A stretch of DNA of 64,000 nt from Pelotomaculum isophthalicicum JI (GTDB lineage Bacteria; Bacillota; Desulfotomaculia; Desulfotomaculales; Pelotomaculaceae). The stretch covers positions 1 to 64,000 of the forward strand of contig NZ_JAKOAV010000003.1 in NCBI RefSeq assembly GCF_029478095.1, read 5' to 3'. Of this stretch, positions 7,512 through 25,180 are shown piece by piece; positions within the stretch are counted from its first letter, which is position 1; each line of letters begins with the position of its first letter. The position numbers and the translations under genes are program-made. The notes under the pieces are model-generated. The model saw only the letters and a list, made by a program, of their open reading frames with translations. It did no database searches and was not told the DNA's origin.

Positions 7512-8608
7512 CTAGGTCACATGATGTCCTCGCCGAGGTGATACGTTCGGTTTCAAGTGTTCCTTTTCCGTTTCGTTAAGTATTTGATATGCCTTAATCA
7601 AGTCAGCATAAAACGTCTCTGCCATATCCCGACTGAAGGTTTCTCTGACAACAACCCTCATCACAGTCATATCATCGGTGTTATCCGGGAGGTTGTAAGC
7701 CGGCAGCATCCAACCTCTTTCACGTAGTTTTTGCGATAATTGGAAGGGGGTAAAGTCAGGGGTATTTTTAAATCTAAATGTTATAATAGGGAGTTCTAGA
7801 TTATTTACCAACTCAAATATATCGGAGTCGGTGAGTTTATTCGCCAGATATCTGGCATTATCCATGCAGTTATTCATAACATTAGTATAGCCGGATTGTC
7901 CCAGATGCAGAAGGTTATAATACTGGGCCAGCACCATACCGGAACCCCGGGAAAAATTCAGGGTATAAGTTGGCATGGTGTCACCCAGATAGTTGACATA
8001 GAATATTAAATCTTCAGGTAAATCAGTATGGTTTTTGAATATCAGCCAACCAACTCCCGGATAAACGAGTCCGAATTTATGTCCCGATACATTGATGGAT
8101 CTTACCTGGGGCAAACGGAAATCCCATTCCAGTTGGGGATTAATAAAAGGCAAAATAAAACCGGCACTAGCGGCATCTACATGAATCGGGATATCCAAAC
8201 CTTTATTTTCTTTAACCTGGACTAGTAAATCATTTATTTCCTTAACGGGTTCACAAGCCCCGGTAAAAGTAGTTCCCATAATAGCACCGACACAGATTGT
8301 ATTTTCATCGATCCGTTCCATAACTGACTTAGCATCGATGCAAAATCGGTCTTTTTCCATGGGTATAATCCTGGGCTCAACATCAAAATATCTCGCAAAT
8401 TTATTCCAGCAGATGTGAGTTCAAAAGCGGTTCGGCCATCAAAATGTAATGCATCATGTATCAATTGGTAGGCGGCATTTGCCGGCATTCCATCCCTTGG
8501 TATGCGGTACTTGGGGATACTTTCTGTGAAATACCTCATGCTGTAGGTTGGTGATATCTCCTGTTTTGTCTCGGATATCTCAGGTGGATTTACTTTTTTC
8601 GCCAACAT
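7512..8608 (-). pseudogene. gadB: Glutamate decarboxylase with internal deletion
   Basis: Reading leftwards, the first 50-60 codons match the GadB N-terminus (IPRDGMPANAAYQLIHDALH, then FDGRTAFELT). The sequence then jumps, in a different frame, to HICWNKFARYFDVEPRIIPM and continues to the normal C-terminus. It includes the pyridoxal-phosphate lysine motif INVSGHKFGL. Compared with E. coli GadB (466 residues) about 100 residues are missing at the junction near 8410, including part of the cofactor site. Deletion plus frameshift means no working enzyme. The second half alone remains open for 282 codons. Intact GadB converts glutamate to GABA in acid resistance. Confidence 0.9.
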
Positions 8609-9586: not shown

Positions 9587-9613
9587 AACCACCGGTTCTA
9601 TGCACCGGTGGTT
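9587..9613 (+). terminator. Hairpin, probable terminator
   Basis: Ten-base perfect arms AACCACCGGT/ACCGGTGGTT around a 7-base loop lie downstream of the tiny YjcZ-like gene. The T-run is poor, so efficiency is uncertain. Confidence 0.5.
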
Positions 9614-9653
9614 ATAATATTATAAACATGTTAATGAAACCCCCCTTCATATC

Positions 9654-9770
9654 CCATTGGCTAAAGCACAAAAAGAAGGAATTAAAAAATCAAAGCTTGT
9701 GCCATTTGAATGCAGCGGTCACGGATTGTTCTGGGAAGAACGTGATAAATTTAGCAAGGAATTGACATAA
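9654..9770 (+). pseudogene. C-terminal fragment of an alpha/beta hydrolase
   Basis: The last 38 codons read PLAKAQKEGIKKSKLVPF followed by ECSGHGLFWEERDKF and end at TAA (9768-9770). The block SGHGLFxEExDKF with the catalytic-type His is the standard C-terminus of small alpha/beta hydrolases. The rest of the gene is absent, and upstream bases show no related frame. This is a gene relic. Confidence 0.55.
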
Positions 9771-9980
9771 TTTATAGGATAGAAAATAATTATATTTCTC
9801 CTGAATTATCCTGTTGGCTATCTTCTGTGTCTAATTTTATGTTTTAGCTAATTTTATTATAGATTACCAAGCATGTATATCAGTTTAGGAAACTGCTTTT
9901 ATAGGTTTAACTGACATTATTTATTACTTATAACGCCAAATGTTTTAACAAATAATAATTATATTAAAGGAGGTGATTTT

Positions 9981-10118
9981 TTGAGTAGATATGGAGATAA
10001 GAACAAATATAAGGGTAATGTTGTTCGCAAACCAGCTACTACAATAACTCCTGATTATGATTTCAGCACAAAAAAGAATAATAATGATGAGGACACTGAT
10101 ACAAAGGAAAATCAATAA
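9981..10118 (+). CDS. Tiny hydrophilic protein of unknown function
   Basis: 45 residues starting at TTG 9981, preceded by a near-perfect AAAGGAGGTGA ribosome binding site and followed by a good terminator (10128-10154). The protein is hydrophilic and probably disordered: SRYGDKNKYKGNVVRKPATT and then TKKNNNDEDTDTKENQ. The strong initiation and termination signals argue that it is expressed. Small acid- or charge-rich proteins like this are often spore components in Firmicutes, but I cannot assign it. Confidence 0.6.
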   Translation: MSRYGDKNKYKGNVVRKPATTITPDYDFSTKKNNNDEDTDTKENQ

Positions 10119-10734: not shown

Positions 10735-10871
10735 TCATTTTTTAGACAACCCCTGGAAAGGAATTTGTCACAAGCTATCGAATATACTTAATTTTAGGTT
10801 TACTAATAAGTAGATCACGTTAATAATATAAACCGTATTTTTAATACATCATTTTGGGAAGGGAGAAAAAA

Positions 10872-11663
10872 GTGGATTATAATTTGGTCAACAGCCGAAT
10901 TGTTTTCGAAACGGATGATATTATTGAAATGCTTGAAGACTTAATAGATGATTACGTATTGATTGAGCATTACTATGAGGAACAACTGATAGAAGCGCAA
11001 ATAATTTTTTTTGAGGATGTTGAGATTGATTACGAGCCCGGGGAGGCCGGTAAATTTTTTAAACCAGAGTATATTAAGGATGATTCCGATGACCCGGAAT
11101 TTTCATTATTACTAAGAAATAATTTTGCGACTAGTTTATATATCAACGGTTCACTGGTAGAAATAGAAATAGAAAACGGGCGTATAGTAGGTTTCGTCGG
11201 AAGCAGGGGTGAATTAATCCTGCGGACCGGGGATGATAGTTATGTCTTTTCCGCTTTATACAACCTTAAAATATTGCCTGAAGACGTGCCGGTGCTATTA
11301 AACGCTGTTATTGGAACACTCACGAATATTCATGATGAAATAACAAAAAACAAAATTGAAAATGAATCGTTTGCTATAATTTCCGGCGTATGTCTTATGG
11401 CAATATCAAAAATAAATGAACTTCCGTTGAATAACTTTGAGCTTAATCTATCACATGACGAGATGCTCTTATTGGGATTAGCGTTGAATCTTACTATTGA
11501 AAATACCGACAAGGATACGCAAAAAATTATTCGATCAGTGATGGAGCAAATTAAATCATACTTTCCGGAAATTGAACATATATCCCCGGAAAGTTTTGAA
11601 CCACCCCCCAATATGGGGCAGTTACTGGATTTCAAAAAACCCGAAAAACCACCCGGAAAGTGA
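10872..11663 (+). CDS. Acidic protein of unknown function upstream of cyclase fusion
   Basis: 263 residues from the GTG at 10872, chosen because GGGAAGGGAG precedes it; a TTG at 10854 would overlap that site. The protein is strongly acidic (DDIIEMLEDLIDDYVLIEHY; SDDPEFSLL), with beta-rich middle parts (NFATSLYINGSLVEIEIENG) and a proline-rich C-terminus (FKKPEKPPGK). There is no membrane helix, signal peptide, nuclease or protease motif that I can see. It ends about 90 bases before the cyclase/NTase fusion gene in the same direction, so the two are probably one transcript. A partner role is inference only. Confidence 0.6.
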   Translation: MDYNLVNSRIVFETDDIIEMLEDLIDDYVLIEHYYEEQLIEAQIIFFEDVEIDYEPGEAGKFFKPEYIKDDSDDPEFSLLLRNNFATSLYINGSLVEIEIENGRIVGFVGSRGELILRTGDDSYVFSALYNLKILPEDVPVLLNAVIGTLTNIHDEITKNKIENESFAIISGVCLMAISKINELPLNNFELNLSHDEMLLLGLALNLTIENTDKDTQKIIRSVMEQIKSYFPEIEHISPESFEPPPNMGQLLDFKKPEKPPGK

Positions 11664-11752
11664 ATTTTAAATAAATATTATAAAGAGGAAAAAAACCTGT
11701 CGTGTGAAATATGTATATTAACTGCTCTATGGCAACGGAGGTGGAAAGAACC

Positions 11753-13327
11753 GTGACAGAATCCTTATATGATCAATATCAGGGACTAGGCGTTTTGGAA
11801 ACAGTATGTGTGGCTTTTTTTGATCTTGTTGATTCAACACATTTAAAGAAACAGATGGGGCAGCTAAAGGGAGTGGACCTGGCATTAAAACACAATCAGG
11901 TTGCGGCAGAGGTCTGCCAGCGATTTAATGGTAGAATAATTAAACATATCGGGGATTCCATCATGGTTGTTTTTAAAATTCCACTGGAAGGTATCCTCGC
12001 GTCAATCGAATTTATTCAAGCAATACATATGAATCAGTATCCTTTTCGTACCAAGGTTGGGTTGGTTCATGGCATTGCTAAAAAGGTCGACATCAACGGA
12101 TTGGATTATCTGGGAAATACTGTTGACCGGAGCGCCCGGCTAACTAGCCAGTCACTCCCCAATCAAATATTAACGGACGAAACAACAATGGATATGATCA
12201 AACCCTTTCTGATGGACTTTAATCAATTAATTTCCCGGTTTGTTGGCATGCGTGAGTTGAAAGGTATCGGTGGCATTCCTGTTTATGAGCTGTCTCTGGA
12301 GAGTATTGGTTTTGTTGAGGAAGAGGCTATTGTTCCCGAGGTGCAGTTTAGCGCATCTAATGGTGTTACAGGTGTGATTAGTAAAAAAGCGCAAAAAGCC
12401 GCCTCTCGCGTTAGAATTGAATTGCCCCCGTTGGCAGGGCAAACGCCGGTGACGTGCGAGGTCAAAGATAAGATACTGGGCAAGATGCTGGAACAATGGA
12501 CATTGAAGAAAGAGGATTTAGAAAATATAGCTATCGGGTACCAAAATATAAGTCATACTTTTGAAAAAGCCTATGACTTGAATATAGCGAGGCTGGCTTT
12601 TAGCGGCACATTCGCGCGTGGTTCGATGATAAAACCGTTGGAACCGGTAGATTTGATTACGGTGATGACACCTCCTTCAGACCAGTACCGTGATGTGGAA
12701 GAAACTGCGCGGGGTCTTGCGCACGTTCTATCTCAAGGATACCCTAATTCTATTACTATAAATAATAACAATTGTATTATTATTTCATTGCAGGGGATTG
12801 ATTTTTTAATTACGCCGGTACTTGCTGTAATTAATGGCGGACAGGGGCAGTTTATGGTTCCTAAGGGAGATTTCTGGGTAGCCGCCAACCCGGCAATCCC
12901 GGAACAGTGGATGGAGCAGGCGGTTAAGCGTAACGGTCCCACATTCTTGCCTTTTATTCGTTTACTAAAAATGTGGCAACGGATTAACTGCACGGTGCTT
13001 AAATCTTTTCACCTTGAGCTGCTAACTGATTTCATTGCTTCGCAAATCAAGCTGGAAATATCGTTTGAATCAATTTATCAATGGTTTAGATATGCATATA
13101 ATTATTACGGCAAAATAAAGAAGCCATACATTCTTGATCCCAGTAAATCGAATACTTATATAGACGAGTATATATTTGCCAGTTCACCGGTTTTTAAAAT
13201 TTTTTCTACTAATATAACAAATGCTTTTAACACGGCAATTCAAGGTGTCACATATTATCGTTCAGGAAAGAAAGAAAAATCTATGGCTAAGTGGAAAGAA
13301 CTTTTTGGGGAATACTGGCTGGCATGA
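11753..13327 (+). CDS. Class III nucleotidyl cyclase fused to CD-NTase-like domain
   Basis: 524 residues from GTG 11753, which follows GGAGGTGG; an ATG at 11711 would add 14. Residues about 20-180 are a class III adenylate/guanylate cyclase domain. Metal-binding Asp lie in AFFDLVDST and KHIGDSIMVVF, the substrate Lys is three residues before that GD, and DYLGNTVDRSARL holds the transition-state Arg with Asn changed to Asp. Residues about 240-510 have the OAS/cGAS-like (CD-NTase) fold: SGTFARGSMIKPLEPVDL, ISLQGIDFLITP, and FIRLLKMWQR with LKSFHLELL. By eye the first and third catalytic acids of the NTase are Pro and Leu. That half may therefore bind rather than make nucleotides. Not in an obvious CBASS or Pycsar operon. 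Confidence 0.85.
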   Translation: MTESLYDQYQGLGVLETVCVAFFDLVDSTHLKKQMGQLKGVDLALKHNQVAAEVCQRFNGRIIKHIGDSIMVVFKIPLEGILASIEFIQAIHMNQYPFRTKVGLVHGIAKKVDINGLDYLGNTVDRSARLTSQSLPNQILTDETTMDMIKPFLMDFNQLISRFVGMRELKGIGGIPVYELSLESIGFVEEEAIVPEVQFSASNGVTGVISKKAQKAASRVRIELPPLAGQTPVTCEVKDKILGKMLEQWTLKKEDLENIAIGYQNISHTFEKAYDLNIARLAFSGTFARGSMIKPLEPVDLITVMTPPSDQYRDVEETARGLAHVLSQGYPNSITINNNNCIIISLQGIDFLITPVLAVINGGQGQFMVPKGDFWVAANPAIPEQWMEQAVKRNGPTFLPFIRLLKMWQRINCTVLKSFHLELLTDFIASQIKLEISFESIYQWFRYAYNYYGKIKKPYILDPSKSNTYIDEYIFASSPVFKIFSTNITNAFNTAIQGVTYYRSGKKEKSMAKWKELFGEYWLA

Positions 13328-13414: not shown

Positions 13415-13714
13415 TTGTACTCTGGGAAATTAAAGGAAGAAATCCTGGATAAGCTTTTTGAAGCCATATTAGTTTTAAAAGATATTGACGAATGCTACCA
13501 GTTCTTTGAGGATCTTTGCACAGTCGCAGAACTTAAGTCGTTGGCCCAAAGGCTTGAGGTGGCTAAAATGCTCGTGGAAAACCGGACTTACGGAGAAATT
13601 ACTCAATACACCGGGGCCAGTACGGCAACAATCAGCCGGGTAAAAAGGGCTCTTAATTACGGAGCTGATGGATATAAATTGGTTTTGGAGCGGTTGGGTG
13701 AAGATTTTTCTTGA
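13415..13714 (+). CDS. yerC: YerC/YecD-family TrpR-like regulator
   Basis: 99 residues, the typical family length. The sequence LCTVAELKSLAQRLEVAKML, ENRTYGEITQYTGASTATIS and RVKRALNYGADGY is the Trp-repressor-type helix-turn-helix with the TGxSxATISRVxR recognition helix. The TTG start follows GGAGGGG. Members of this group sit beside histidine genes in several Peptococcaceae and are proposed as histidine-responsive repressors (HisR). The position 66 bases before hisD fits that role. The operator is not identified. Confidence is high for family and moderate for histidine control. Confidence 0.88.
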   Translation: MYSGKLKEEILDKLFEAILVLKDIDECYQFFEDLCTVAELKSLAQRLEVAKMLVENRTYGEITQYTGASTATISRVKRALNYGADGYKLVLERLGEDFS

Positions 13715-19648: not shown

Positions 19649-22600
19649 ATGGAATTGATAAAATTATGGGAAAACAAAAGAAAACTTGAGCTAATTACCC
19701 TAATTATTGCGTTATTCAGTCTGTTATGGTTCAATGTTCCGGCCGTAAAAGCGGAAGAAAAAACAGATTACCTGAACAAACCTGAAAAAGTGGGTAAAAA
19801 GTTACCGTACGGGCTTAGAGAAGAAACAAAAGCTATTCGTTTACCCTTTATTTCAGACCAGGGGAAGATTATCGACGAGGTTGTTGAAAAATATGCCAGA
19901 ACATTTGGCGACTCGGTATATGTGACCAGTGACGGAAAACAAGCATACTACCTGCCCCAGTTTGATAAAAAATCGCATGACAGGGCGGAAACCATACTGT
20001 TAAAGCGAAAAACAGGGGATATAATACTGCAGCCGTTGTCAACTTTTTCACCGGGTCTCACTACAACATATCCACGGGAGACATTTGATGCAGCTGCGGA
20101 AGATACGGTGACCAAGTCCACCTATAGCGCCGGCTCCCCAAGTCGATTAAATACATTTACCGCACTGCAAGGTGATGGAACTTCGTCCAGCCCTTATTTG
20201 ATTTATACCGCGCAAGATCTCGATTCGATTAGAAATACAGTTGGTGAAGCAGTTCACTACAAGTTAATGAACGATCTTGATTTATCCGTCTTCGGCCAGG
20301 AGGCAAACGGGTGGACGCCCATTGGGGACGAGGACAACCCGTTTAACGGGTACTTTGACGGCAATGGTAAAGTTATCAGCGGATTGTATGTTCGAGGCGA
20401 CTTGTTCTTGGGACTGTTCGGCTGTACCAGCGATTCCAGCGAGATTAGCAACACCAATTTGGAAGACGTAAACATTGTTGGTTCAAATGATTCCGTTTTT
20501 GTCGGCGGGTTGGTTGGGGTTGCTTTTGGCAAAATAAATAACTCTTCTGTAACCGGCAACGTGTCAGGAGACAGATTCGTTGGCGGTTTGGTAGGCTGTT
20601 CAGAAGAGGGATATGTGAATTCAGATGAGGAATATGTTAATAACTCCCATACAGACGTTGGAGTGTCATGTACCGGTCTTTTCGCCGGCGGTCTGGTGGG
20701 CAGCACTGATGGAGTTGTAAGCAACTGCCACGCCACCGGCGGCGTGTCCGGCAATGAGTACGTTGGCGGACTGATCGGGTGCGCTTACAATAATGTAATC
20801 AACTCCCATGCCAACGGAACAGTGTCCGGTAATGATATATTCGTTGGCGGGCTGGTTGGCGGGTCTTTAGACGGCAATATAAATAACTCCTATGCCACCG
20901 GCACAGTGACAGGCATTGGTTTTGTCGGCGGGCTGACAGGCTATGCTCATGTTGGTGATATCAACAATTCCTATGCCACCGGTGCAGTGACAGGCATTGG
21001 TGGAGTGTCCGGTGATGATGATTACGTCGGCGGTCTGGTAGGGTGTACTTATCACAATGTGATTAATTCCCATGCCACCGGTACAGTGTCAGGCGCTGAT
21101 GATTACGTTGGCGGGCTGGCAGGTGAGGTCGGTAATATAAATAAATCCTATGCCACCGGCAGAGTGACAGGTGATATTTACGTCGGCGGGCTGGCTGGTA
21201 ACGCCGTTGATATAAGCAACTCCTATGCCACCGGTGCAGTGACAGGCACTGGTTTTATCGGCGGACTAACCGGTGAAACCTGCGGTAGTAATATGCATAA
21301 TTCCTATGCCGCCGGGAGAGTGTCAAGCACGGGTATTTTCGTTGGCGCTCTGGTGGGCTATAATTGTTCTTCGGCAGTCATCAACAACTGCTACTGGGAT
21401 ATAAATACCACGGAACAAACTTCCTGCATCGGCGGCGACGGCTACGCCGGCAATTCCGGTAATAATGGAAGAACCACGGCGCAAATGAAACAGAAGGCCA
21501 CATTTGACGGATGGGATTTTACCGCAATATGGGCGATAGACGAAGGTAATAGCTATCCGTACCTGCAAACAGACAACGACAAAACCGCGTTGGGCAAACG
21601 CCCCTACTGCCAATACGGAAAAGGCTCAGTCAACCTTTCCACCGGCAACTTCATCCTGGAACAAACAGACCTGGCCATTCCGTCAATAGGCCCGTCCCTG
21701 GAGTTTACCCGGTTTTACAACTCTCAGGACAACTATACAGGTCCCCAAGGCCGGGGCTGGACACATAACTACAACACAAACCTTACATTAAACGACGGGA
21801 GCGTCATTGTAGCTTATGCCGACGGTCATACCTACACCTTTACTTCTGACAATGGCGTATATACCCGTCCCCCCGGCTGCTTCGAGACAATTACCGCTGG
21901 CCCGGGCAGTGGTTACACACTCACTTTCAAGGACCAGACCAAGTACTTTTTTAACGTTGAAGGCCGGTTGACCAGTATTGCGGATAAAAACGGCAACACT
22001 CTAACCCTGACCTATACCAACGGCATTCTGACCTCAGCCGCCGAACCGGCCGGCCGCGTCCTTACCTTCACCTACGATACCGACAACCATCTGACAGGTG
22101 TAGCCGACCCTGCCGGTCGGAACGTCGCCTATACTTATGACAGCAGCGGCAACCTGGCCACAGTGCGGGATGTCCTGGGCAATATCACCCAATATAACTA
22201 CGACGCGCAAGGCCTGACCGAAATTATCTCTCCCGTCGGTAATGCTCTCTTATGCAACACCTACGACAGCAACAGCAGGGTAATCAGGCAGACCGACGGC
22301 TGCGGCAGCACCACCCAGTATAGCTATGATCTGGCCAACCGGCAGACGACCGTAACCGACGCCCTGGGTAATACCAGCACTGTCACCTGGGATGAAAAGC
22401 GCCGTGGCACCGCTATCACCTACCCGGATAACAGCACCGAAATCTTTGTCTATGACAACAACAACTGCCGTACCAGAGTAACTGACGCCCTGAACCATAC
22501 CACCGCCTGCGGCTATGACGATTTCGGCAATCTCCTTAATATCACCGACCCGGCTGGAAACACCACCATCATAACCTACGACGGCAGTAACAACCTCCTG

Positions 22601-25180
22601 TCCGTGAAGAACGCAGCCGGTAAACAAATTAATTTCACTTACGATGCAAGCAATAATTTAACCAGCATAACCGACACCTTGGGGAATACCACAACCTATA
22701 CCTACGACAATAGCGGGTTACTGCTCAGCAAAACAACCCCCGCTCCTAATTCCGGCACCACCAGCTACACCTACCAAGACGGCCTGCTGAAAACCGTCAC
22801 CGACCCGGCGGGAAACACCACCACGTACGATTATGACGAGGCCGGACGGCCAGTCACCATCACCGACGCCGAAGGCAAACAAACCGTCATGTCTTATAAC
22901 GCTGCAGACAACCCGGTCGCTGTCACCGACCCCCTGGGAAACACCACAAGTGTCACTTACGATTGGCGCGGCGACATACTCACGAAAACTGACGCTAAGG
23001 GTTATATCACCAATTACGCATACAACGGCAACGGAAAACTTATCAGTATAATTGACGCCTTAAACCACGAGACCAGTTATGGATACGACGCGGAAAACCG
23101 CCTGGTAACAATCACCGACCCACGCGGGAACACGAGCACTTACAGCTATGACGCCTTGGGCAGACTCACCGGCGTTACCGATCCCCTTGGCAACACAATC
23201 ACCAACCATTACGATGCCGCAGGCAATCTAACCGGAAAAACCGATGCCCTGGGTAAACAAATCCTCACCGTCAGCTATGATCCGTTGAACAACCCCGAAA
23301 ACATCAGTGATGCCCTGGGGAACACCACTAACAATGAATACGACAGCCTGAGCCGCTTGGTTAAAGTAACCAATCCATTGGAGCAGAGCACCCAATTTTA
23401 TTACGACGACCTGAACAGATTGAAAACAACCGCAGATGCCCTGAACGGCCAGGGCAGCCAGGATTTTGACGCCCACGGCAACCGGACGGCCATGGTAGAC
23501 CCTAACAGCAACGAGACAAGCTTCAACTATGACCCTGCCGACTGCCTGACCGGCAGAACCACCGCCGCTTCCGGCAGCACCACCCTGGCTTATAATGCCA
23601 GGAACCTGGTAGCGCATAAAACCAACGCCAGAGGCCAGACAACCACTTGCGAATATGACGCCGCCGGCCGCCTGGTCAGCCTCACCAGTTCCGACGGGAC
23701 AGTGACCCTTACCTACGACCAAAACGGCAACATGCTAACCGCCACCGACAGCAGCGGCGCAACCGAACGCTGGTATGACGCTTTAAACCGCTTGGTCAAA
23801 TACATGGACATTCAGGGTAACATTATTGAATACGCTTACGACGCAGCCGGTAACCTGATTACCCTCACCTATCCTGGGGGCCGGCGCGTTAACTACGAAT
23901 ACGATGACGACAATCAGTTAGTGAAAGTAACCGACTGGGCAGGCCGGATCACCACCTACGAGTACGACCCCAACGGCAGGCTCGTGCGGACAGTTCACCC
24001 GAACGGCACGGAGACGACCCGCGCATATGACGACACCGGCCGGCTGGCGCAGCAAAAAGATAAAAATACAGGCGACAGTATCATCAGCCAGTACGATTAC
24101 ACCTACGACCCTGCAGGAAATCTAACCGAAGAGAAGAATTCCAACGAAACAGGGCAATTAACCATGGACGACACCGCCTTGACCTACGCTGCCGATAACC
24201 GCCTGGCTACGTATAACGGACAGACCGTCCTATACGACGCCGACGGTAATATGACAAAAGGGCCCCTGGCCGGCAACATGGTCAACTTCACCTATGACAC
24301 CCGCGGCCGGCTGACCGGGGCGGGGAATATCACATACACTTACGATGCCGTTAACAACCGCGTCCGGGCCAGCAACGGAGACCGTCAAACCAGCTACACA
24401 GTCAATCCGAACGCCCGCTTAAGCCAAGTATTAGTCCAAAGAGACGAAGAAAACAAACAGACCTTTTACATCTACGGCCTGGGCCTAATCGGCCAGGAAG
24501 ATCAAGGAGGAGAATACCGCAGCTACCACTTCGACATGCGGGGTAGCACCATCGCCCTGACGGATGACAACGGCCAGGTGACCGACCGCTTCCAGTACGC
24601 CCCTTATGGAGAATTAATCTACCGGAGCGGAAACACCGCAACGCCGTTCCTGTTTAACGGCCGTTACGGCGTTATGACTGATGCCAGTGACCTGTACTAC
24701 ATGCGGGCGCGCTATTACAACCCGGTTGCCAAAAGGTTCCTGAGCCCAGACACGTTAACTGGTCAAGTTAGCAACCCGCAGTCGCAGAACCGGTATATTT
24801 ACTGCGAGGGTAACCCGGTATTGCTTGTAGATCCAACGGGGCATAGAAGTGGAAGAATTTACTGGGCAGCCAATGTGGATTTTGCAAATTATAACTATGA
24901 GGAGTTATATGAACAGTATATTACCTTAGAAGAACAGATACAGAATGAAACAGATATCTTGAATGGAGATTATAATTGGTGGGATAAAGATATTGCAGAA
25001 TATAATTTGTCAGTGTATTCGGACCAGATTAAAGTACTAAATGAATTACTCATCATTAAAGGAAACTATTCTCAAGAGGAACAAGACTTCGCCCAACTGG
25101 CCCTGCAAAGCCTAATTGATGAGGAAACTAGAACTGACATTGATGAAGCTAGTGGAATTGTTTTGGGAATGTATGGGTGA
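19649..25180 (+). CDS. Secreted GLUG/Rhs-repeat polymorphic toxin, core part
   Basis: 1843 residues. A signal peptide (LITLIIALFSLLWF, cleavage after VKA) comes first. About ten GLUG repeats (YVGGLVGxxxxxxINNSYATGxVTG type) span residues 220-640, and a DUF6531-like entry domain (SVNLSTGNFILEQTDLAIPS) follows at about 655. Some forty YD repeats span 730-1600. The Rhs core is at about 1625-1720 (LYYMRARYYNPVAKRFLSPD, NPVLLVDPTG). Rhs proteins form a shell around a C-terminal toxin released in a neighbour. Here the frame ends at a TGA, and the same frame goes on to encode an AHH nuclease (25181-25492). The C-terminal 125 codons are AT-richer than the core. Confidence 0.92.
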   Translation: MELIKLWENKRKLELITLIIALFSLLWFNVPAVKAEEKTDYLNKPEKVGKKLPYGLREETKAIRLPFISDQGKIIDEVVEKYARTFGDSVYVTSDGKQAYYLPQFDKKSHDRAETILLKRKTGDIILQPLSTFSPGLTTTYPRETFDAAAEDTVTKSTYSAGSPSRLNTFTALQGDGTSSSPYLIYTAQDLDSIRNTVGEAVHYKLMNDLDLSVFGQEANGWTPIGDEDNPFNGYFDGNGKVISGLYVRGDLFLGLFGCTSDSSEISNTNLEDVNIVGSNDSVFVGGLVGVAFGKINNSSVTGNVSGDRFVGGLVGCSEEGYVNSDEEYVNNSHTDVGVSCTGLFAGGLVGSTDGVVSNCHATGGVSGNEYVGGLIGCAYNNVINSHANGTVSGNDIFVGGLVGGSLDGNINNSYATGTVTGIGFVGGLTGYAHVGDINNSYATGAVTGIGGVSGDDDYVGGLVGCTYHNVINSHATGTVSGADDYVGGLAGEVGNINKSYATGRVTGDIYVGGLAGNAVDISNSYATGAVTGTGFIGGLTGETCGSNMHNSYAAGRVSSTGIFVGALVGYNCSSAVINNCYWDINTTEQTSCIGGDGYAGNSGNNGRTTAQMKQKATFDGWDFTAIWAIDEGNSYPYLQTDNDKTALGKRPYCQYGKGSVNLSTGNFILEQTDLAIPSIGPSLEFTRFYNSQDNYTGPQGRGWTHNYNTNLTLNDGSVIVAYADGHTYTFTSDNGVYTRPPGCFETITAGPGSGYTLTFKDQTKYFFNVEGRLTSIADKNGNTLTLTYTNGILTSAAEPAGRVLTFTYDTDNHLTGVADPAGRNVAYTYDSSGNLATVRDVLGNITQYNYDAQGLTEIISPVGNALLCNTYDSNSRVIRQTDGCGSTTQYSYDLANRQTTVTDALGNTSTVTWDEKRRGTAITYPDNSTEIFVYDNNNCRTRVTDALNHTTACGYDDFGNLLNITDPAGNTTIITYDGSNNLLSVKNAAGKQINFTYDASNNLTSITDTLGNTTTYTYDNSGLLLSKTTPAPNSGTTSYTYQDGLLKTVTDPAGNTTTYDYDEAGRPVTITDAEGKQTVMSYNAADNPVAVTDPLGNTTSVTYDWRGDILTKTDAKGYITNYAYNGNGKLISIIDALNHETSYGYDAENRLVTITDPRGNTSTYSYDALGRLTGVTDPLGNTITNHYDAAGNLTGKTDALGKQILTVSYDPLNNPENISDALGNTTNNEYDSLSRLVKVTNPLEQSTQFYYDDLNRLKTTADALNGQGSQDFDAHGNRTAMVDPNSNETSFNYDPADCLTGRTTAASGSTTLAYNARNLVAHKTNARGQTTTCEYDAAGRLVSLTSSDGTVTLTYDQNGNMLTATDSSGATERWYDALNRLVKYMDIQGNIIEYAYDAAGNLITLTYPGGRRVNYEYDDDNQLVKVTDWAGRITTYEYDPNGRLVRTVHPNGTETTRAYDDTGRLAQQKDKNTGDSIISQYDYTYDPAGNLTEEKNSNETGQLTMDDTALTYAADNRLATYNGQTVLYDADGNMTKGPLAGNMVNFTYDTRGRLTGAGNITYTYDAVNNRVRASNGDRQTSYTVNPNARLSQVLVQRDEENKQTFYIYGLGLIGQEDQGGEYRSYHFDMRGSTIALTDDNGQVTDRFQYAPYGELIYRSGNTATPFLFNGRYGVMTDASDLYYMRARYYNPVAKRFLSPDTLTGQVSNPQSQNRYIYCEGNPVLLVDPTGHRSGRIYWAANVDFANYNYEELYEQYITLEEQIQNETDILNGDYNWWDKDIAEYNLSVYSDQIKVLNELLIIKGNYSQEEQDFAQLALQSLIDEETRTDIDEASGIVLGMYG

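Follow-up and report, generated by a model that had tools for sequence, protein, structure and literature searches.

A single open reading frame in the genome of Pelotomaculum isophthalicicum JI encodes an N-terminal class III nucleotidyl cyclase fused to a C-terminal CD-NTase domain, and the catalytic acid triad of the latter is incomplete in every homologous fusion that we found. We propose, with a probability of about 0.48, that the fusion is a single-protein transducer, in which the cyclase is controlled by a pseudo-CD-NTase that retains most of its donor pocket. Selection has maintained the broken CD-NTase half in two bacterial classes, and this half is therefore probably a sensor controlling the cyclase.

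A cyclase and a CD-NTase-like domain in one frame

The fusion gene occupies positions 11753-13327 of the window, that is, of the whole stretch of 64,000 nucleotides that was analysed (contig NZ_JAKOAV010000003.1, positions 1 to 64,000); coordinates below are those of the window and features lie on the plus strand unless stated otherwise. The frame encodes 524 aa and begins with a GTG at 11753, upstream of which lies a Shine-Dalgarno sequence, GGAGG, at 11737-11741. The fusion gene and its close relatives share this start position, each with a comparable Shine-Dalgarno site, and the alternative, longer ATG start at 11711 is without a site of this type. The cyclase domain (11798-12292) and the CD-NTase-like domain (12422-13324) are separated by a linker that is variable in the alignments (12314-12421). 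Linkers longer by about 100 aa and rich in Ser, Gly and Ala were seen in three fusions of one genus (L042, L043 and L055). The preliminary description had claimed a cyclase/CD-NTase fusion, and its frame, coordinates and start proved correct, with both halves matching their respective families. An accidental join or a frameshift was ruled out by 14 open homologues that are collinear over both halves.

The same two-domain order, sought in other genomes, was found in a single frame in 15 genomes from two classes of one phylum, namely, 9 of the 113 genomes of the class of the window and 6 of the 83 from a second class; some 400 genomes sampled from the phylum yielded no further carrier. The 15 genomes contain 14 distinct proteins, two genomes of the same species having an identical one. 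Within the class of the window, the fusions share 45-82% identity with the window protein, and three carriers have public names: P. terephthalicicum JT 7, Pelotomaculum sp. PtaU1.Bin035 and Pelotomaculum sp. PtaB.Bin013, the last with a protein identical to that of the window. The C-terminal halves of the fusions formed one clade (support 1.000) in a tree that included 11 unfused CD-NTases. Pairwise identities of the N-terminal and C-terminal halves were correlated (r = 0.954), which, since related sequences have a common history, is a general sign of joint inheritance and says nothing about when the fusion arose. The mean identity was 0.53 for the cyclase half versus 0.43 for the CD-NTase half, so that the cyclase is the better conserved of the two. 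Both halves are under purifying selection, with dN/dS values of 0.04-0.22 wherever dS could be estimated (the zero printed for one saturated comparison is not meaningful).

A degenerate CD-NTase half with mostly conserved donor-site positions

The C-terminal half matched a PADLOC model for oligonucleotide cyclases (5.2e-27; 1.1e-27 for PDLC00823), and 13 of 13 fusion members gave PADLOC matches. The matches to NCBIfam CBASS_cyclase_b (3.8e-15) and Pfam SMODS (2.8e-4) were below the strict cut-off and slightly below the cut-off, respectively. Profile-profile comparison with hhalign of 13 fusion C-terminal halves against six unfused CD-NTases gave a probability of 99.9 and an E value of 1e-31 over 276 columns, which span the catalytic core and the helical lobe, and the PDB matches, PaCdnD and BcCdnD among them, point to a domain of the clade C/D kind. 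AlphaFold models computed with three sequences each had mean pLDDT values of 34.5 (full protein) and 36.8 (C-terminal half), the alignment being too shallow.

Active CD-NTases carry the signature of a G[S/G] loop followed by [D/E]h[D/E]...[D/E]. In the window protein, the loop is present as GT, within the GS-type motif SGTFARG (12602-12622), of which Gly285, Arg289 and Gly290 are found in all 14 fusions, whereas the triad reads P-D-L. As the preliminary description had proposed, the first acid is replaced by Pro298 and the third by Leu352 (12806-12808); the second, Asp300, is kept within the P-V-D motif at 12644-12652. Across the family, an acid stands at the first position in 3 of the 14 proteins (Asp in one, Glu in two more) and at the third in 2, as against all 14 at the second. 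The triad is complete in none of the 14 fusions versus all seven intact unfused CD-NTases aligned with them, in agreement with the earlier claim that this half seems catalytically dead. The seven references were chosen for looking intact and hence calibrate the alignment rather than sample the CD-NTase family, in which unfused members such as L024, L045 and L046 are degenerate too. Many different substitutions are seen at the first (P, Q, E, T, S and A) and third (L, M, V, S, G, R and K) positions, and nine columns that are invariant in the seven references are also invariant in the 14 fusions (G285, R289, P295, P355, W375, P380, W408, E422 and G519). The diversity at the first and third acids resembles lost constraint at catalytic sites rather than general decay.

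Among the unfused proteins, two CD-NTase-like sequences, L045:4911-5795 (SMODS 1.3e-28) and L046:5483-6370, have Asn at the first two acid positions (N-I-N) and Glu at the third, and form a separate, second set that looks catalytically dead. In another, L024:1707-2540 (SMODS 1.4e-10), from a genome of the family of the window, the first acid position is occupied by Ser and the second by Arg. An alignment of unfused CD-NTases contained no stretch of sufficient conservation to serve as a query in scans for relatives.

The alignments also bear on the question of whether the CD-NTase half might be active through displaced acids, which we regard as highly improbable. The window protein, L016 and L017 do have acids beside the lost positions (Glu297 and Asp/Glu350), but Asp or Glu occurs at position 350 in only 7 of the 14 fusions and the neighbouring acids are not conserved, so that displaced but intact acids were rejected as a feature of the family. 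Moreover, BcCdnD itself has an Asp at the equivalent of position 350 alongside its catalytic Asp, and the fusions are altered at the lid positions as well.

Mapping of the site residues of BcCdnD (PMC13424991) onto the 14 fusions through the alignments separated the donor pocket from the acceptor site. At the donor site, the equivalent of R56, Arg289, is Arg in all 14 proteins; that of S53 (Ser/Thr286) is Ser or Thr in 13; that of D75 (position 300) is Asp in all but one, which has Glu; and that of Lys178, Lys406 (12968-12970), is Lys or Arg in 12. The equivalent of H155, which belongs both to the donor site and to Lid 2, is Pro in 13 fusions and Ser in one. By contrast, the acceptor and metal positions D73 and D123 are acidic in only 3 and 2 of the 14 fusions, respectively, and Thr150 of Lid 1 is kept in none, being replaced by Arg in 11; the corresponding segment of the window (12884-12901) has Arg and Pro in most of the other fusions, according to the same mapping. 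In L016, the equivalents of D75, K178 and S53 are Glu, Thr and Ala, respectively, and its pocket is therefore probably weaker.

What such a pocket might do is suggested by BcCdnD, whose D75N variant is inactive and still binds ATP; the ATP complex of the wild-type enzyme contains one Mg, which D75 coordinates together with the phosphates, and the non-activated enzyme is inhibited by ATP (PMC13424991). Given the retention of most donor-site positions and the binding of ATP by the D75N variant, it is plausible that the C-terminal half is a nucleotide-binding pseudoenzyme with one site, and the nucleotide sensing proposed in the preliminary description gains support accordingly from the mapped positions. 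That the CD-NTase half is only a module for folding or dimerisation, sensing nothing, appears improbable: most of the invariant residues are of a structural type (Gly, Trp and Pro), as such a module would have it, but Arg289 and the acid at position 300, both dispensable for a scaffold alone, are present in all 14 fusions.

The cyclase half and its setting in the genome

The N-terminal half matched Pfam Guanylate_cyc (PF00211) with an E value of 3.3e-10 and 40.3 bits, above the cut-off of 21.9, and the nearest solved structures are those of the short-arm, IIIc-type enzymes Ma1120, Rv1900c and Rv1264. About 10 residues between Gly107 and Asp118 make up a short dimerisation arm, the limit of which was judged by alignment. 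Both metal-binding Asp residues are present in the window protein, as in 12 of the 14 family members: Asp24 (11822-11824), which is Ser in L021 and Gly in L022, and the invariant Asp68, which closes the motif KHIGD (11942-11956) opened by the equally invariant adenine-type Lys64. The segment at 12104-12139 holds the adenine-type Asp118 and, at the position of the transition-state Asn, Asp125, both invariant, together with Arg129, which is kept in 13 of the 14 fusions and replaced by Lys in L019. Judging from the short arm, the Lys64/Asp118 adenine pair and the nearest structures, the N-terminal half belongs to class IIIc. The metal-binding Asp residues, the Lys and the Arg that the preliminary description had listed were thus all found, with one correction: the transition-state Asn-Arg pair is incomplete in the window protein, the canonical Asn being Asp125 there and in the whole family.

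Ma1120, an active adenylyl cyclase, has Ala at the position of this Asn, and exchanging the Ala for Asn lowers its activity drastically (PMC4215837). Thus, Asp125 alone is no argument against activity; nor is the Asn class-defining, and the assignment to class III stands. Our search turned up no assayed enzyme with Asp at this position. L021 and L022 may be inactive as cyclases, judging from the loss of the first metal Asp. The same two proteins have the third CD-NTase acid, the reverse of the other fusions.

These substitutions are among the points in favour of a different reading, namely, that neither half turns over and that the protein is a nucleotide-binding scaffold or regulator acting through protein contacts. 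The first metal Asp is missing from L021 and L022, L019 has Lys for the transition-state Arg, all 14 proteins are without the Asn, and another class III cyclase is often present in the genomes that carry the fusion. However, 11 of the 14 fusions keep both metal Asp residues, the Lys, the Asp and the Arg, the cyclase is the better conserved half, and active Ma1120 likewise lacks the Asn (PMC4215837). We consider a non-catalytic protein unlikely, though an alternative to be reckoned with.

In Pelotomaculum, the fusion gene is flanked by a gene for a 269-aa protein (10854-11663) and by a yerC/TrpR-like gene (13415-13714) followed by hisD. The 269-aa gene occurs in 22 of the 113 genomes of the class, all from the family of the window, and in two genomes of this family that are without the fusion (G091 and G092) it directly adjoins yerC, at distances of about 120 and 95 bases. 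It was therefore rejected as a partner, both flanking genes being resident neighbours, and the fusion was gained or lost as a single gene. In a second family, the fusion lies beside a Na/Pi cotransporter gene, and several genomes have genes for an HtrA-like protease and for a two-component pair nearby; in a third, it mostly lies by groES/groEL or by a DUF192 gene and chemotaxis genes. The absence of a fixed partner is consistent with a diffusible product. The genome of the window encodes one other class III cyclase and has six cNMP-binding matches above the Pfam cut-off.

Several further features of these regions were recorded. In L018, a ComFB gene (9611-10000, plus strand) adjoins the fusion gene in divergent orientation, and none was noticed by the other fusions, where short genes were scanned unsystematically; the ComFB family has been reported to comprise c-di-AMP receptors (PMC12313861). 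On the minus strand of the window, a pyridoxal-dependent decarboxylase gene (7512-8608) is apparently split over two overlapping frames by a frameshift or an assembly error: the frame at 7512-8360 matches PF00282 (2.9e-44) starting at profile position 187, and that at 8234-8608 appears by eye to encode the N-terminal part and has no Pfam match. An 1843-aa RHS-repeat protein with GLUG motifs ahead of the repeats is encoded at 19649-25180 (plus strand).

The preliminary description had also linked the fusion to phage defence. In this scenario, the pseudo-CD-NTase would detect a phage product, for example, structured RNA, and the cyclase would make a Pycsar-like alarm signal. Both folds are used in defence, catalytically dead OAS domains (OASL, OAS3) bind dsRNA (PMC4446440), and the C-terminal halves are mostly basic (pI 7.2-9.4, except in L016). 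However, intact CBASS enzymes have a basic pI as well, and invariant basic residues are few. PADLOC found only generic protease matches among the neighbours of the fusion; in the neighbourhoods examined, neither a CBASS effector gene nor a cNMP-sensing Pycsar effector lies beside it, and the cyclase residues are of the adenine type. Furthermore, the fusion sits among stable housekeeping genes that differ between families, no plasmid record spans both halves, and collections of phages and viral contigs contain no relative. A role in defence is thus unsupported by this ordinary chromosomal setting, and we deem such a sensor distinctly unlikely; RNA sensing, which had been suggested as well, has no specific support beyond the analogy with OASL.

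Proposed signalling and comparison with known systems

In the proposed transducer, the product of the IIIc-type N-terminal half would be a cyclic mononucleotide and, given the adenine-type Lys64/Asp118 pair, most likely cAMP. The C-terminal half would have lost the joining of nucleotides and retained the fold with most of the donor pocket (Ser/Thr286, Arg289, Asp300 and Lys406), in which it may bind one NTP or a nucleotide-like ligand. Ligand binding would then shift the cyclase dimer between an off and an on state, and cNMP-binding regulators at other places in the cell would respond to the cyclic nucleotide. The sequences themselves show the fusion, its conservation under selection, the lost triad and the retained donor-site positions, whereas the binding of a nucleotide, its effect on the cyclase, the identity of the product and the receiver of the signal are what we infer. 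That the C-terminal half regulates the fused cyclase, as the preliminary description had suggested, is the most economical reading, although it may fail for the two members that have lost the metal Asp. More specifically, and with somewhat less confidence than an even chance, the fusions could represent a family of transducers not described before, with a cGAS-like enzyme that has turned into a one-site nucleotide receptor and is wired directly to a cAMP-type cyclase.

Dead receptor domains of the OAS/cGAS type are known from animals (OASL and the domains of OAS3). If the proposal is correct, the fusion would add a bacterial example that carries its own enzymatic read-out, in which binding of a ligand by a CD-NTase fold becomes measurable as cyclic nucleotide made, and in which a former immune enzyme sets an ordinary second messenger. 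It would also bear on the activation of CD-NTases, since the pseudo-domain may retain the sensing part without the chemistry. For genome annotation, it carries a warning: a defence-gene model matches the fusion at 5e-27 despite the housekeeping context.

The preliminary description had not recognised the architecture as that of a described system, and we, too, came across no account of a class III cyclase combined with a CD-NTase in the open-access literature, which is weak evidence of novelty as most subscription papers lie outside that scope. The class IIIc cyclases Ma1120, Rv1900c and Rv1264 share the short arm with the fusion, and the metal Asp residues, the Lys-Asp pair and the Arg are as in Ma1120, but none of the three has a CD-NTase domain, and the transition-state Asn position is occupied by Asp in the fusion, Ala in Ma1120 and His in Rv1900c. 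The order of a cyclase followed by a C-terminal regulatory domain, a role that in the fusion is putative, recurs in AC-YHS of M. phlei, a copper-stimulated IIIc cyclase with a C-terminal YHS sensor domain (PMC4626032); however, the YHS domain is small, binds copper and follows a linker of 8 residues, whereas the fusion carries a 300-aa pseudoenzyme behind a longer linker. With the clade C/D CBASS enzymes PaCdnD (6P82), BcCdnD (9SA4) and EcCdnC (6P80), the C-terminal half shares the predicted fold, the GS-type loop, the second acid, the donor-pocket residues and the C-terminal helical region; unlike them, it has lost the third acid as well as the first, together with both lid residues, is attached to a cyclase and is without an effector gene. 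PycC of Pycsar resembles the fusion in its class III cyclase fold and through a weak PADLOC match (3e-5), but has pyrimidine-type residues (PMC11224242) and an adjacent effector, in contrast to the adenine-type Lys and Asp and the missing effector of the fusion. Human OASL offers a parallel for the sensor itself: an OAS/cGAS-fold domain with a broken acid triad has been kept as a sensor, as may be the case in the fusion, although OASL, unlike the fusion, binds dsRNA and acts on RIG-I signalling without a cyclase.
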